From Candidatus Binatia bacterium (lineage in GTDB: Bacteria > Desulfobacterota > Binatia > HRBIN30), in assembly GCA_023150935.1 (NCBI GenBank), contig JAKLJW010000022.1, positions 1 through 64,000 on the forward strand: a DNA stretch of 64,000 nucleotides, read 5' to 3'. Shown piece by piece: positions 17,346-24,100 of the stretch. A program made the translations under genes and the position numbers. The notes under the pieces were generated by a model that saw nothing but the letters and a program-made list of their open reading frames with translations, ran no database searches and was not told the DNA's origin. How positions within the stretch are numbered: the first letter of the stretch is position 1; the number at the start of each line of letters is the position of its first letter.

Positions 17346-17789
17346 ATGCGGGCGATGACACCCACTGCAGGGCGGCTGGGCCGCGTGGCGATCGATGAAA
17401 TAGAAGGCGCGCTGCGCCGCGCGCTCGCTGCGTGGCCGGCGATACGCGCCGCGTGGCTCTTCGGGTCGGTCGCGACCGACAGCGCCGGGCCGCTTTCCGA
17501 CGTCGACATCGCGGTCCTGGGCGTGGGAGCACTGTCGTTCGACGAACGTGCGCGCCTGGCGGTCGACCTCGGCCGCGCGATCGGGAGCTCCTGCGATGTC
17601 GTCGCCGTGGAGCAGGCGTCGCCGGTCCTCGGGATGGCAATCGTGGAGACGGGCCGGCGCTTTCTTTGCCGCGACGAGCGCGCGGCCGACGCGTGGGAGG
17701 ACGCCGCACTGCGGCGCTACCTCGACACCGCCGAACTGCGGCGCATCGTCTACGGCTACGTACACGAGGATTTGCACGCCGTCCGATGA
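17346..17789 (+). CDS. mntA: MntA antitoxin, minimal nucleotidyltransferase
   Basis: This 147-residue minimal nucleotidyltransferase carries the exact GSX10DXD signature: G40-S41, then D52 and D54 in LSDVDIAV. In characterised HepT-MntA pairs this enzyme AMPylates a tyrosine on the HEPN toxin and so silences it. The stop overlaps the ATG of the HEPN gene (ATGA at 17786), the standard bicistron. The start could be 17346 or the ATG at 17355. The enzyme looks intact. Confidence 0.88.
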   Translation: MRAMTPTAGRLGRVAIDEIEGALRRALAAWPAIRAAWLFGSVATDSAGPLSDVDIAVLGVGALSFDERARLAVDLGRAIGSSCDVVAVEQASPVLGMAIVETGRRFLCRDERAADAWEDAALRRYLDTAELRRIVYGYVHEDLHAVR

Positions 17790-18214
17790 CCCTGCGGCCC
17801 GATACGGTGCGCGAGCGGCTCGCCATGGTGCGCACAAACCTCGCCGAGCTGGCGGCGATTTCGACGTTGCCACGCGAGCGCTTTCTCGCCGATCGCCGGG
17901 AACAATGGGCTACGGCCTACGCGCTGCAGACCACCGTCCAGGCCTTGCTCGATGCCGGCGCACACATCCTCAGTGGACGGTTCAAGGAAAGCCCGCGCGA
18001 GTACGGAGAGATCGTTCCGTTGCTGACCCGCCACGGGGTTCTCGACGCCGCGTTGGGCGAGCGACTGTGCAGGGTCGCTGGATTCCGCAACGTGCTGGTG
18101 CACGAGTACGCCGCGGTCGACTACGCGCTGGTGTACGATAAACTCGGTCAACTCGACGAGCTTCGTCGGTTCGCGGCCGCGCTCGACGCGTGGTTGACGG
18201 CCGAGGGGCTCTGA
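17786..18214 (+). CDS. hepT: HepT toxin, HEPN ribonuclease
   Basis: This 142-residue, all-helical HEPN-domain protein is the toxin of a type VII pair. The motif RNVLVHEY gives R101, H106 and Y108, matching RX4HXY: Arg and His form the RNase site, and the Tyr is the residue AMPylated by MntA. Upstream helices include a conserved QTTVQALLDAGAHIL segment typical of HepT. Its ATG overlaps the mntA stop. Known homologues cleave tRNA or mRNA ends. All catalytic and modification residues are present, so the system is probably functional. Confidence 0.9.
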   Translation: MTLRPDTVRERLAMVRTNLAELAAISTLPRERFLADRREQWATAYALQTTVQALLDAGAHILSGRFKESPREYGEIVPLLTRHGVLDAALGERLCRVAGFRNVLVHEYAAVDYALVYDKLGQLDELRRFAAALDAWLTAEGL

Positions 18215-18305: not shown

Positions 18306-19517
18306 TCAGCGGACGGTGCGGCCGATGCCGCGGAACATGCGTGCGAGCAGGGGGCGCAGGATTGGCGTCAGCAGGCGACGGACTACCCCCGGGGGCGGGG
18401 TGTTGGCTGCCGCCGTGAAGCGGTCGATGCCGAGTTGCTCGCGGAGGTCCGAGGTCATGATGGCCACCGGATCGTCGAGCGGGATGCCTGTGCCGTCGGC
18501 GATCCGCACCATGCGCTCGAAGTTCGAGGCCACCGCTACGGCATCGACCAGCGGCGGCGCGCCAAGCTCCGTGAGCACCCGCTGGCGCGCGCCAGCCAGA
18601 GACTCCTCGTCGCTTCCTACCATGGCATCGGCCAACTCGATCAAGGCCGCGGCATGCGCGATGCCGCTTGCGCCGGCCCGGCTGGCGTCGGTGATGGCGC
18701 CAACGTCCACCGCCTGCCCGCCGCTCTCACCGCTCGCACGGAGCAGCAGCGCGTGCGAACTGGTTCAGTAGAAGCATCCGCGCGACGCCGACACGCGCCC
18801 CGCAACCAGCTCGATCTGGCGGCGATCGAGCGCGCGGCGGCTTTCGCGCAGGTTCAGCATCTCCGGCGGCGACAGGTAGTGCGCGGCGCCCAGTTCCTTC
18901 AGTCCGCGGACTTCGTCAGGCACGAGACTCAGGGCGCGGATGACATTGGCGGTCCGGCCGCCGGGCATCTCGTCCCACAGGTCCGCCTCCGACCCGCCGT
19001 TGCGTCCGTTCGGCAGCATCGGCACCCACGCACCCTCCAGACGCGCCGCGGCCGGACGATAGCGTGACGGCTTGCCGGCCATCGGCGCCGGCAGCGGATG
19101 CAACGGGATTCCGAGGCCGCGGCAGAAGCTGTCGATGCTCACAACGGTGACGATGACACCGATCAGTTCGACGTAGGCGCCGTCGCTCACCCCCGCCGCC
19201 CGGGTGTGATCGAACCAGTCGCGGGTCAGCCGGCCGGGGTCGGTGGTGACCCGGTGTACCACGTCGACCGCCGCGGGCGACAGGAGGGCCGTGCCGGGGT
19301 GGCTTCCGGGGACGGCGTACGGGGACAGCGCTCGCTTGCGTTCGGCGCACAGATCGCAACGTGCGGCGTTGCGCACCTCCGCCGCGACGGCCACCCGCTC
19401 CGCACCGTTCCACCAGGTACCCGGCGCGGCAAGGCGCCGCCACTGGTTGGCGTGCGCGATGGTGAGGTCGTCGCGGATGCGGAACGGCGAACCGCTGTAA
19501 TCGATCGCCATTGCCAT
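18306..19517 (-). CDS. AhpD-like two-domain selenoprotein (in-frame UGA read as Sec)
   Basis: Two adjacent minus-strand frames (250 and 134+ codons) are in the same phase and separated by a single TGA at 18765-18767. Read through, they give one 403-residue protein with Sec at 251. The context is GCFY-U-TSSHALLLRASG, exactly the AhpD/carboxymuconolactone-decarboxylase signature CxxC-x3-H with the second Cys replaced by Sec. The N-terminal half is a divergent repeat of the same fold with its own CDLC (C54, C57); both halves contain a matching helix (VVSIDSFCRGLGIPL; VASNFERMVRIADGTGIPL). AhpD-fold proteins reduce peroxides or recycle thiols. A hairpin follows the UGA. The alternative is a nonsense mutation, but its position at the catalytic Cys and the intact downstream domain argue for selenocysteine. 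Sec machinery genes are not in this window. Confidence 0.78.
18732..18760 (-). promoter_or_regulatory. Candidate bacterial SECIS hairpin
   Basis: Four nucleotides after the UGA, the mRNA reads GUUCGCACG, an 11-nt loop, then CGUGCGAGC. This is a 9-bp stem with one G-U pair. The loop has G as its second base, as bacterial SECIS loops usually do. The loop starts 13 nt after the UGA, slightly closer than the commonest spacing. Confidence 0.5.
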
Positions 19518-19726
19518 GTCTTATGCTCCGCCGCGGGCGCCAAAGGAAGGAGTAGAAAGGATAAAAGATGGCGGTCGACGAGCCTTCTCGAGAGCCGCCG
19601 TGCCGGGAATGACGGTGCCGCGCCCGAGCGTCACGGCAACGCTGCCGGCAACGGCCGCGGGTGCCGAAGGGCCGGGGTGGCAATTTACGGCGTGACAGTT
19701 GCAGGCTTCCGTGCAAGGAGCATTAG

Positions 19727-22700
19727 ATGCCCCGGATTCGCACCCGGCACCTGATATGCGGGTGGTCCGTACTGGTTGTCGGCGTCAGCGCCCTCTGCCT
19801 CGCTGGCGCCGTGGTGGGCGTGGCGTCGCCCGTGCGTGCGGCGCCGCGCCCGCTGCCCGACACCACCGAGGGCATCCACGTCTTCAACGACCAGCTCCTT
19901 AACCTCACTCCGGGTCGCATCGCCTTCGCGGTTTCGCATTACGCCGGCACACAGAAAATGACGCGGGCCGACGCTGACGCCTTGCGCGCCGTCGATCCCG
20001 ATTTCGTCATCCTGCATTATCGGCTCGCGCTCGGCCTCGGCTATCGCGCCACCGCCGGCGCCTGCTCGCCGACCGGGGAATACATCTACATCATCGACAC
20101 CTCCTGGGTGCGGGAATGGCCGGACGACGCGACCCTGCAGGACTCGTGGTTCTACCTCGTCGACGGCAGCCGCGTGTACGGGTGCGGTTGGGGCTGGTAC
20201 CTGGTCGACCTCGACGATCCGGCGTGGCGCACGTGGTGGTCGGACGCCGTGCTCGGCCAACTGGCCGCCAACGACGACGACGGCCTGTTCGCCGACACCT
20301 TCAGCGTGCCCAACTACCTCGGCGGCGACACCTTCGATCCGCCGCTGCCGGCGTACGATCCGGCCTTCGAGGCGGAGTGGACCGCGCGCATGGAGCGCTT
20401 CATGACCTACCTGCAGGGTCGCCTCGGCGGCAACTACTACCTGATTCCCAACGTGGGACAATGGGTTACCAGTCGCGATACGGTCGACTACTCCCTCGCC
20501 GACGGCGTCATGATCGAGGGCTTCGGCTACGACACTCTCGCCGCCTTCGGTGCCGACGACTGGAAGCTGCAGCTCGATCGGGTCCTCGGCCTTGTTCGTC
20601 TCGGGCGCGCCGTGCTCGGCCAAGCCTACGAAGTCGATAACGTGAACGATCGGCTCTTCACCCTCGGCAGTTACCTGCTCGTCAAGGGCACGCGCACCTA
20701 TGTCAATCTCGATACCGGTCTGACGCCCGAATGGTGGCCGGAGTACGAAATCCCGATCGGCACCCCGACCACGCCCCTGCCGACCCGCATCGACGATCTC
20801 TACGATGCCCCCTACGGCGTCCACGTGCGCGAGTACACCAACGGCCGCGTTCTGGTGAATTCCGGCAACTCGGCCAGATCGGTGCCTCTCGGCGAAACCC
20901 TCTACCGGGCCGACCCGTCGGGTGGCGGCACCGTACCGTCGAGCGGCGTGCTCCCTTCCTCCTGGATGGTGAACTACACGGCGGTCAGCACCGTCGTCGT
21001 GCCGGCTCGCGGCGCGGTCATCGTCGTCCGCGATCCGACGGGCACCTCGCCGTCGGCAACGCCGGCGCCGACCGCCACGGCGACGCCGACCGTCCCGCCC
21101 ACCGCCACCCGAACCCCGACGCCGCTGCCCGCCGCCACGATCGGCGGGACGATCCGCTACCACGCCACCGACGCTCCCGTACCGGATACCGGCGTTGCGC
21201 TGACCGGCCCCACGTCGACGACCGTCACGACCGATGCCGCCGGCGCCTACACGGCGAGCGCCGTTACCGGCGACACGTGGACGCTAACGCCTGAAAAGAC
21301 CGGTGGCGCCGTGGACGCCGTATCCGCACTCGATGCCGTGTACGTCCTGCAAGCCGCCGTCGGGCTGCGGGTCTTCGATGCCATGCAGACCCTTGCCTGC
21401 GACGTTAGCGGCAACGGGGCGTTGAGCTCCTACGATGCTGCGCTGATCCTTCAGTACGTGGTAGGTCTCCTGCCGCGCCTGCCGGTGGCCGAACGATGCG
21501 CGTCGGACTGGGCTTTCGTTCCCAATCCAGCGCCCGCGCCCAATCAGCGCACGATATCCCCGGTCAACACCACCACCACCTGTCAGCGCGGCGCGATCGC
21601 TTACGAGCCGCTCGCCGGCAGTGTCGCGGCGCAGGACTTCCGCGCGGTGCTGTACGGCGACTGTACGGGCAATTGGCAGCCGCCCGCGGCCACACCGACC
21701 GCCACGGCCACGGCCAGTCCGTCGCCTACCGTCACGCGGACCGCCACACCGACGGCATCCGGCACCGACACTCCCACCGCAACCCCGACCTTCGTCGGTA
21801 CGCCCGGGGCGTCCGTGGTGACCGAGCGTTGGGGAGCGCACTCCTCGGCGACGCACATCGGAACGGCGATGGACATGTCGCTCAACGAGCTGCAGCCGAC
21901 ATGGTCGGCTAACAACGGCTCGACGATCATCGTCGGCGAACCCACCGGCGGACGCCACTGGGGGCTCGTCCGCTTCGACCTCGGTGCGCTGGGGTCCACC
22001 ACGGTCGTGCGCAGCGCTCGGCTGCGACTGGCGCTGTTCGCCCACAGTGAGCCGCGCGATCTGTGGCTGCCGGCTTATCCGGTCGTCGATCCGGACGGTC
22101 GCGGCCTGTGGTCGGAATCGGCGGCGACCTTTGCGCAGCGGCGGCCCGGCGTGCCGTGGTCGGCGCAGGGAAACCTCGCTACCAGCGTCGGGGCCGAGGT
22201 CGGAAGAGCGTACGTCGGCAACCTGCCGCAGTGGAACACGACCTGGGTCGAGTGGGACGTTACCGACGCGGTCCGCCAGTGGGTCATCAACCCGGCCGCC
22301 AACCAGGGGCTTGCGTTGCCGGCTCCCTCGGGAGCGCTCTTCGAGTCGGCGTCGCGCGAGAACGGCGACGCATCGACTCGTCCGTACCTGGAAATCGCCT
22401 ACGAGGGGCCCAACCCGAATCGGCCGGCGCAGGTCACCGGCGCCGGCGCCACCCACCGCAGCGGTCAGACGTTCGTCACCTGGAACGAGCAGTCGGCCGG
22501 CGGGGCCGAGGTACGCTACCGCGTTTACCGGAGCACCCAGCCCATCGATGCCGCCACGATCGATCAGGCCACTCTGCTCGCCGAGGTCGAGCCGGACTCC
22601 GGGGCCTATGTGCACGAGACTTCCGGCTGCAGCAACGGCTCCGGCTGCTCGCCGATCGGCCAGCAGCGGTTCGTCATCGCCGACGACGGCAGTCCACTCC

Positions 22701-24100
22701 CGGTCGGGGTGGGCCTCTTCGTACATACCGTGCACGACGGCGGTCCCGGCTACTACGCGGTGACGCGCGTCGTCGACGGCAACGAGAACCGCGACGATTT
22801 CGGCGCCAACCGCGTCGATGCACTGCCCGAGGGCGAGGCGACGCCGCGTCCCGTGCGCGTGTGGACCAATGCCACCGGTACCGGCTGGGTATTCACCCAG
22901 TTCATGGACCACGCGGTCTGGAACGCCCAGGTGGAAGGATACGCCTACAATTTCTACGTCGGCGTACCGGCGGGTTACAGTGCGGCGGGGCCGGCCTGGC
23001 CGCTGATGATGCAGTTGCACGCCTACACCGGCACGTACCGGTTGCCGGCCAGTCCCGGGACAGGCGGAACCGACTATGGCTGGCCGATCGTGCAGGTGTT
23101 TCCCGACGATCGCACCAACACGTGGTGGTTCGGATTCGGTGCCAATGCGGCGCACGTGGACCGCCGCCTCGCCGATGCCCCGGTGGTCGACTATACGCAC
23201 CGGCGGCTCGACGCGATCCTCGACTTCGTCGCCGGCAACTGGAACGTCGACGCGAACCGCCAGTACCTGTTCGGCGGCTCGATGGGCGGCAGCGGGACAG
23301 TGAACTACGGCCTGCGGCGCGGCGATCGGTTCGCGGCGATTTACGCCGAGAGTGCGATGACCGACTTCGCGCAGGCAGGGGCAGCCGGCGGCACGGCGTG
23401 GGAGACAGGCGGGATAACCGCGCTATGGGGAACGCGGGCCCAGGCGCTGCCGACGACGCACGGAATGAGCGTGTGGGACTGGTACGACCTGCAGAGTTGG
23501 GTGAGCGCGAACCCGGCCGCGGCTCTGCCGTTCCTGGCGGATCATCACGGTCGCAACGACGACGTGATCGACTGGGAAACGCAGGGAGCGCCGTGGTACC
23601 CGGCGTTGGAAGCCGGCCGGCACGGCATGGTTGGCGTGTTCGACGCCTCCGGTCACTCGTGGCCGGGCTTCGTTGCCGACAGCACGGTCTTTCAGCTTAC
23701 CGACTTCGCGTTTCGCCGCGACGAGAGCTTTCCGGCATTCAGTCGCGCGGCGAATTCCGACGATCCCGCCGTGACGACAGGTTGTCGCAACTGCCGACTC
23801 GAGTGGTCGTCGTCGTGGTTGGACTTCGCCGGGCCGCCGCTGGACATGCCGGCGCGGTACGAGATCGTGCTCAGGACGACCAACGGCGCGAACACCACCG
23901 TGGACGTCACGCCGCGGCGCCTGCAGCAGTTCGTGGTCGCGGCGGGCGCCTCGTACGCGTGGGAGCACCGTCGTCTGGCGGACGACGCGTTACTGGGCGG
24001 AGGTACCGCGGTCGCCGACGGCGACGGTCTGCTGACCGTGTCCGACGTGCCGGTCCTTGCCGCGGGCACGCGCCTGGTAATCGTGCCGGCGGGAGGCTGA
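19727..24100 (+). CDS. Giant secreted multidomain glycoside hydrolase-like/esterase protein
   Basis: This is a 1457-residue exported protein with ribosome-binding site AAGGAG and signal peptide 1-38. The domains in order are as follows. Residues 45-435 are a hypothetical TIM-barrel glycoside-hydrolase-like region (DGLFADTF, DGVMIEGFGYD as acidic candidates). A Thr-Pro linker leads to a short SdrD-like beta domain and a dockerin-like calcium loop (CDVSGNGALSSYDAALIL). A second TPT linker precedes a DNRLRE-type beta domain with VRFDLGALG, then a fibronectin-III-like segment. The C-terminus is an alpha/beta hydrolase related to PHB-depolymerase/feruloyl esterases, with GGSMGG (S1185) and SGHSWPG (H1310). 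It probably acts outside the cell on a polysaccharide or ester-linked polymer. The substrate is unknown. Confidence 0.75.
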   Translation: MPRIRTRHLICGWSVLVVGVSALCLAGAVVGVASPVRAAPRPLPDTTEGIHVFNDQLLNLTPGRIAFAVSHYAGTQKMTRADADALRAVDPDFVILHYRLALGLGYRATAGACSPTGEYIYIIDTSWVREWPDDATLQDSWFYLVDGSRVYGCGWGWYLVDLDDPAWRTWWSDAVLGQLAANDDDGLFADTFSVPNYLGGDTFDPPLPAYDPAFEAEWTARMERFMTYLQGRLGGNYYLIPNVGQWVTSRDTVDYSLADGVMIEGFGYDTLAAFGADDWKLQLDRVLGLVRLGRAVLGQAYEVDNVNDRLFTLGSYLLVKGTRTYVNLDTGLTPEWWPEYEIPIGTPTTPLPTRIDDLYDAPYGVHVREYTNGRVLVNSGNSARSVPLGETLYRADPSGGGTVPSSGVLPSSWMVNYTAVSTVVVPARGAVIVVRDPTGTSPSATPAPTATATPTVPPTATRTPTPLPAATIGGTIRYHATDAPVPDTGVALTGPTSTTVTTDAAGAYTASAVTGDTWTLTPEKTGGAVDAVSALDAVYVLQAAVGLRVFDAMQTLACDVSGNGALSSYDAALILQYVVGLLPRLPVAERCASDWAFVPNPAPAPNQRTISPVNTTTTCQRGAIAYEPLAGSVAAQDFRAVLYGDCTGNWQPPAATPTATATASPSPTVTRTATPTASGTDTPTATPTFVGTPGASVVTERWGAHSSATHIGTAMDMSLNELQPTWSANNGSTIIVGEPTGGRHWGLVRFDLGALGSTTVVRSARLRLALFAHSEPRDLWLPAYPVVDPDGRGLWSESAATFAQRRPGVPWSAQGNLATSVGAEVGRAYVGNLPQWNTTWVEWDVTDAVRQWVINPAANQGLALPAPSGALFESASRENGDASTRPYLEIAYEGPNPNRPAQVTGAGATHRSGQTFVTWNEQSAGGAEVRYRVYRSTQPIDAATIDQATLLAEVEPDSGAYVHETSGCSNGSGCSPIGQQRFVIADDGSPLPVGVGLFVHTVHDGGPGYYAVTRVVDGNENRDDFGANRVDALPEGEATPRPVRVWTNATGTGWVFTQFMDHAVWNAQVEGYAYNFYVGVPAGYSAAGPAWPLMMQLHAYTGTYRLPASPGTGGTDYGWPIVQVFPDDRTNTWWFGFGANAAHVDRRLADAPVVDYTHRRLDAILDFVAGNWNVDANRQYLFGGSMGGSGTVNYGLRRGDRFAAIYAESAMTDFAQAGAAGGTAWETGGITALWGTRAQALPTTHGMSVWDWYDLQSWVSANPAAALPFLADHHGRNDDVIDWETQGAPWYPALEAGRHGMVGVFDASGHSWPGFVADSTVFQLTDFAFRRDESFPAFSRAANSDDPAVTTGCRNCRLEWSSSWLDFAGPPLDMPARYEIVLRTTNGANTTVDVTPRRLQQFVVAAGASYAWEHRRLADDALLGGGTAVADGDGLLTVSDVPVLAAGTRLVIVPAGG

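Follow-up and report, generated by a model that had tools for sequence, protein, structure and literature searches.

A predicted two-domain AhpD-related selenoprotein gene in Candidatus Binatia, an added member of a catalogued selenoprotein family

Within a 64,000-nucleotide stretch of Candidatus Binatia DNA (the window; contig JAKLJW010000022.1), comparative sequence analysis identified, with high confidence, a genuine selenoprotein gene with one 'stop' codon that would be decoded as selenocysteine (Sec). Its first frame runs on the minus strand from the ATG at 19517 to 18768 (250 amino acids) and meets a TGA at 18765–18767; 3' of this internal TGA, 152 in-phase sense codons continue on the same strand to a second TGA at 18306–18308. 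The first-pass annotation had described two same-phase frames split by one TGA without stating the strand, and this was borne out on the minus strand; a plus-strand reading of coordinates 18306–19517 did not give the described protein. With TGA translated as U, the motif at the internal TGA is GCFY-U-TSSHALLLRASG, GCFYUT being residues 247–252. The features of the gene are as follows.

18306..19517, minus strand: complete predicted selenoprotein gene of 403 codons (Sec counted), followed by the terminal TGA (translation with TGA as U; NF041238 match)
19526..19529, minus strand: probable Shine–Dalgarno sequence GGAG, 8 nt 5' of the ATG (from the sequence)
19038..19517, minus strand: N-terminal degenerate AhpD-like domain, with C54xxC57 present and without the relay Glu/His (hhalign, AlphaFold/Foldseek)
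18402..18956, minus strand: predicted C-terminal AhpD-like catalytic domain, Glu236-X11-Cys248-X-Tyr250-Sec251-X3-His255 (PF02627; AhpD structure profile matches)
18765..18767, minus strand: in-frame TGA, predicted Sec codon 251 of CFYU (TGA in relatives)
18729..18747, minus strand: predicted bSECIS upper stem-loop 3' of the UGA, with core stem UGCUC / GAGCR and loop C-G-[U/G]-G-N
18309..18401, minus strand: basic helical C-terminal tail (tail comparison; helix 378–402 in the model; subset of relatives)

The read-through protein matched the family model NF041238 (AhpD_rel_CFYUT) at 1.7e-145 and 484.8 bits over model positions 1–356 of 357, clearing the curated cut-off of 175 bits over the full model, and carried the C-F-Y-U/C-T motif of that family. 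Because this one 357-position HMM aligned unbroken across the TGA (residues 14–368, 485 bits), a chance split of the frames is excluded. A genome-wide family search gave a single match in the genome, with one TGA inside it. All 34 relatives in our alignment also matched NF041238. The window protein shares with this alkylhydroperoxidase-related (seleno)protein family the full-length match, the CFYUT motif, CxxU, one Sec and a bSECIS after the UGA; the sole difference is its basic C-terminal tail, which might bind membrane or nucleic acid. Basic tails of 20–35 residues were seen in some relatives (L034, L035, L040, L042, L046, L048, L050, L054 and L057) and were absent in the other members.

The model for AhpD proper, TIGR00777, scored 13.1 bits against a cut-off of 191.95, the general AhpD models all fell below their cut-offs, and the Pfam CMD match (PF02627, 1.4e-7) was confined to the region around the CFYU site. 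On these profile scores, we classify the window protein as AhpD-related, not as AhpD itself. A 2005 survey of the Sargasso Sea described, as 'hypothetical protein 1', a CxxU family with a predicted SECIS, represented by four Sec-containing sequences and several with Cys (PMC1088965), and a 2026 review equates this family with the CxxU selenoprotein family NF041238 (PMC13188914); we found no mention of the accession NF041238 outside that review in the literature searched. Since these sources already catalogue the family as selenoproteins, the window protein is a new member and the family is not new: it is a well-supported addition to a catalogued selenoprotein family. In the GOS survey, the selenoproteins AhpD-like 1/2 (COG2128, PF02627) likewise have CxxU in an AhpD/CMD core, but are catalogued as families separate from that of the window protein. 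The expectation that conventional annotation would split the gene into two open reading frames held for naive gene callers; NCBI, however, already has a selenoprotein-aware family model.

The family was carried by 28 of the 148 genomes of the window's class. These gave 41 matches, 38 of which spanned the TGA site and contained exactly one TGA (38/38), the remaining three being fragments in which the match ended before the site. Read directly, the codon at the Sec column was TGA in all 40 loci from several phyla, including Acidimicrobiales, Granulosicoccaceae, one alphaproteobacterial and one Pseudomonadales metagenome-assembled genome (MAG), and the relatives were 32–53% identical to the window protein. 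A Cys-containing version of the NF041238 family was sought among the sampled relatives and none was found; Cys homologues are listed in the 2005 survey (PMC1088965). Alignment with Cys homologues, suggested in the first-pass annotation, placed the UGA on the second Cys of the AhpD structures 6k40 and 3c1l. Four genomes (G360, G400, G483 and G485) each held three family copies or partial copies, which suggests a lineage-specific expansion.

Alignment of the 60 nt 3' of the TGA required no gaps around the core UGCUC-CG[U/G]GN-GAGCR, which is invariant. Numbering from the T of TGA as 1 and counting pairs in 38 distinct sequences, we found pairs 24–36, 25–35, 26–34 and 27–33 formed in 38/38 and pair 23–37 in 37/38, with an invariant loop G. 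At pairs 23–37 and 24–36 the 3' side varied (A/G and C/U) with pairing kept, the one broken 23–37 pair apart. The published bSECIS model calls for a loop of 3–9 nt that has a G among its first two bases, often with G/U next, and lies 16–37 nt from the UGA (PMC13188914). The hairpin fits this model: the loop has 5 nt, its second base is G and its third always U or G, and the spacing between UGA and loop is 24 nt. Synonymous conservation, measured as codon homozygosity against the expectation from codon usage with the gene as its own control, ranked the hairpin codons 258, 259, 260 and 262 first to fourth among 147 columns, at 2.7–3.8 times expected homozygosity (median, 1.08). Leu259 was CTC in 40/40 loci, whereas five codons each are used at the two remaining columns of strongly conserved Leu, 292 and 362. 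An exact search of the 5.3-Mb genome with the hairpin pattern gave one match, at this gene. The predicted SECIS is carried by this comparative evidence and not by the single-sequence fold, which was modestly better than shuffles (z −1.7). An Rfam scan gave no SECIS above gathering on the coding strand and one weak match on the wrong strand; as the Rfam SECIS models are, to our knowledge, not general bacterial ones, this null is weak evidence.

The genome of the window contains tRNA-Sec (77.7 bits, anticodon UCA), selA (584.8 bits) and selB (411.7 bits) as an adjacent pair on contig 46, and selD (331.9 bits), so that the search for Sec machinery on which the first-pass annotation had made its claim depend returned every component. 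The selD gene (L019 1501–2424, G000 contig 1) is itself a predicted selenoprotein gene, with TGA in VTAGG-U-ARKLG. Among the class genomes, selB was present in 25/28 carriers of the family and 94/120 non-carriers (Fisher p 0.29); since the majority of the class possesses it, selB does not separate carriers from non-carriers and is uninformative here. Three carriers (G446, G450 and G485) had no SelB over the cut-off, and a shorter SelB-like ORF seen in them was EF-Tu on inspection, adjoining fusA in two of the three. Given that this ORF was EF-Tu, the absence of SelB is probably an assembly gap; tRNA-Sec is present in G450 and G485.

Two other accounts of the internal TGA were weighed against Sec. 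Were it a nonsense mutation or sequencing error, the gene would be a pseudogene or two separate genes, as the two ORFs from default gene calling might imply, and one relative is truly decayed: L056 (G483:C13), a copy in a multi-copy genome that is counted among the 40 loci, has three in-frame TAG codons, its TGA and hairpin being intact. Yet the TGA occupies the identical column in every one of the 40 relatives down to 32% identity, conservation is strong on both sides of it, and the genome has the full Sec machinery. Nor did we see the scattered nonsense mutations that the first-pass annotation had named as a sign against its reading: the position of the TGA is fixed, and the window copy has no such codons elsewhere. 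We therefore give decay or error practically no weight. Decoding of the UGA as a different residue, such as Trp or Cys, through general recoding or suppression is also very unlikely, if marginally less so; Cys occupies this column in non-Sec AhpD relatives and so is tolerable, but there is a specific, conserved hairpin 3' of the UGA, a genuine tRNA-Sec, SelA, SelB and SelD are present, and the gene itself ends in TGA (18306–18308), so TGA is not a general sense codon. Selenocysteine, the core claim at first pass, is supported together by the family model, the TGA in every relative, the bSECIS hairpin and the machinery. Our high confidence covers selenoprotein identity and Sec insertion; the peroxidase or thiol-disulfide chemistry is graded separately, as probable.

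In the C-terminal domain, a profile search matched AhpD structure 6k40 (1e-13, profile positions 194–342), and the relay residues Glu236, Cys248, Tyr250, Sec251 and His255 were conserved in 40, 40, 39, 40 and 40 of 40 loci. The relay of PA0269 is Glu36-Cys48-Tyr50-Cys51-His55, within the PA0269/AhpD pattern Glu-X11-Cys-X-Tyr/His-Cys-X3-His (PMC3141380); the window protein has the same relay spacing and matches the AhpD spacing of CxxC followed by His noted at first pass. M. tuberculosis AhpD and PA0269 / DR1765 (1gu9, 2o4d, 6k40) share with it the helical AhpD core and the Glu-X11-Cys-X-[His/Tyr]-Cys-X3-His relay, but are shorter (145–197 residues as PDB chains) and have Cys where the window protein has Sec.

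Sec251 is at the second position of the CxxC and aligns with Cys133 of M. tuberculosis AhpD, which is reported to cross-link with AhpC, Cys130 being partly buried (PMC6626918). The first-pass prediction of a CxxU in which the second Cys is replaced thus stood, but its label of 'resolving Cys' is probably wrong, because Sec lies at the position of the AhpC-contacting Cys133 and Cys130 is partly buried. On our reading, Sec251 would attack and Cys248 would resolve. The order of attack is less certain because the first Cys is the more important in Burkholderia AhpD (PMC6626918) and is the only one of the CxxC retained in Sestrin.

The N-terminal 160 residues had no Pfam match. However, hhalign aligned the N-terminal with the C-terminal domain (E 6.5e-5, probability 64%), placing CxLC on CFYC, and an AlphaFold model of the N-terminal domain alone (pLDDT 95) had AhpD-family proteins as all of its top 24 Foldseek PDB matches. 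On these two grounds we conclude that the protein has two AhpD-like domains, which agrees with the first-pass placement of the UGA in the second of two, the first half being degenerate; the N-terminal CxxC was present in 28/40 relatives. The AlphaFold2 model of the whole protein, from the 34-sequence alignment, was mostly helical (pLDDT 94.6, pTM 0.94) and contained the AhpD-like helix–turn–helix and five-residue proton relay (E236, C248, Y250, U251, H255). Its closest PDB structures were the AhpD-family entries 2prr, 6k40, 3c1l and 2oyo, with modest E-values and proteins half as long.

This layout recalls human Sestrin2, in which two AhpD-like domains in one chain, one of them catalytic, mimic a dimer (PMC4674687). 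The active domain of Sestrin2 is N-terminal with a single Cys (Cys125), whereas that of the window protein would be C-terminal with Cys and Sec, and the structural match was weak (TM about 0.4, rmsd 13 Å); we take the resemblance as analogy and do not claim common descent. A speculative and rather improbable extension is that the protein is a fused dimer resembling Sestrin in a bacterium, whose Cys54/Cys57 pass electrons to the C-terminal Sec site, with this first stage lost in some lineages (Acidimicrobiales among them); if true, it would make a self-contained two-stage dithiol/selenol relay within one protein.

The selenoprotein gene is solitary: it converges on a nucleotidyltransferase/HepT pair and diverges from the gene for a GHL15-domain protein, and no conserved operon was found around it in the window's class. 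The pair, at 17346–18214 on the plus strand, comprises a nucleotidyltransferase gene (PF18765/PF01909) and, immediately after it, a HepT-like gene (PF01934), the layout of MntA/HepT toxin–antitoxin systems. The divergent gene, at 19727–24100 on the plus strand, is a 1457-amino-acid ORF with an N-terminal part that matches the hypothetical glycosyl hydrolase family GHL15 and with proline/threonine-rich linkers. A large neighbour cluster of 17 loci was set aside, its coordinates indicating that it apparently consists of antisense frames of the selenoprotein gene itself. No relative was matched by tblastn against plasmids or found among the viral contigs searched; the gene therefore does not look mobile.

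We propose that SelB with Sec-tRNA(Sec) would recognize the mRNA hairpin just 3' of the UGA (24 nt to the loop), Sec would be inserted and the ribosome would continue to give a 403-residue protein. Its C-terminal domain would be the catalytic half of a two-domain AhpD-related selenoprotein, in which the Glu236/His255/Tyr250 relay would activate Sec251 for attack, most likely on a peroxide or disulfide partner. Cys248 would then resolve the attacked species, and the resulting selenenyl sulfide would be re-reduced by a dithiol donor of the cell; the N-terminal domain, a predicted duplicate of the AhpD fold from which the catalytic relay is gone, may serve as an intramolecular dimer half. Alternatively, Sec may be inserted as proposed into an AhpD/CMD fold repurposed away from peroxidase or thiol-disulfide oxidoreductase activity, a role in CoA or lipid metabolism being one example. 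Some distant relatives adjoin enoyl-CoA hydratase, SDR, CoA-transferase or luciferase-like genes, the debrominase Bmp8 was among the structural matches, so the fold is capable of other reductive chemistry, and the window protein exceeds ordinary AhpD in size. Against this, the complete five-residue AhpD relay is retained, and the gene neighbourhood is unconserved in the window's own class, such neighbour genes being common; we consider repurposing unlikely, although it carries appreciable weight, and peroxidase or thiol-disulfide chemistry the probable function.

Together, these results extend a catalogued but biochemically uncharacterized selenoprotein family to another bacterial lineage, and the gene provides a clean example of ordinary annotation cutting one gene into two. 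All copies sampled in the window's lineage encode Sec, and genomes often have several of them; the domain logic would be that of one inactive and one Sec-active AhpD half.
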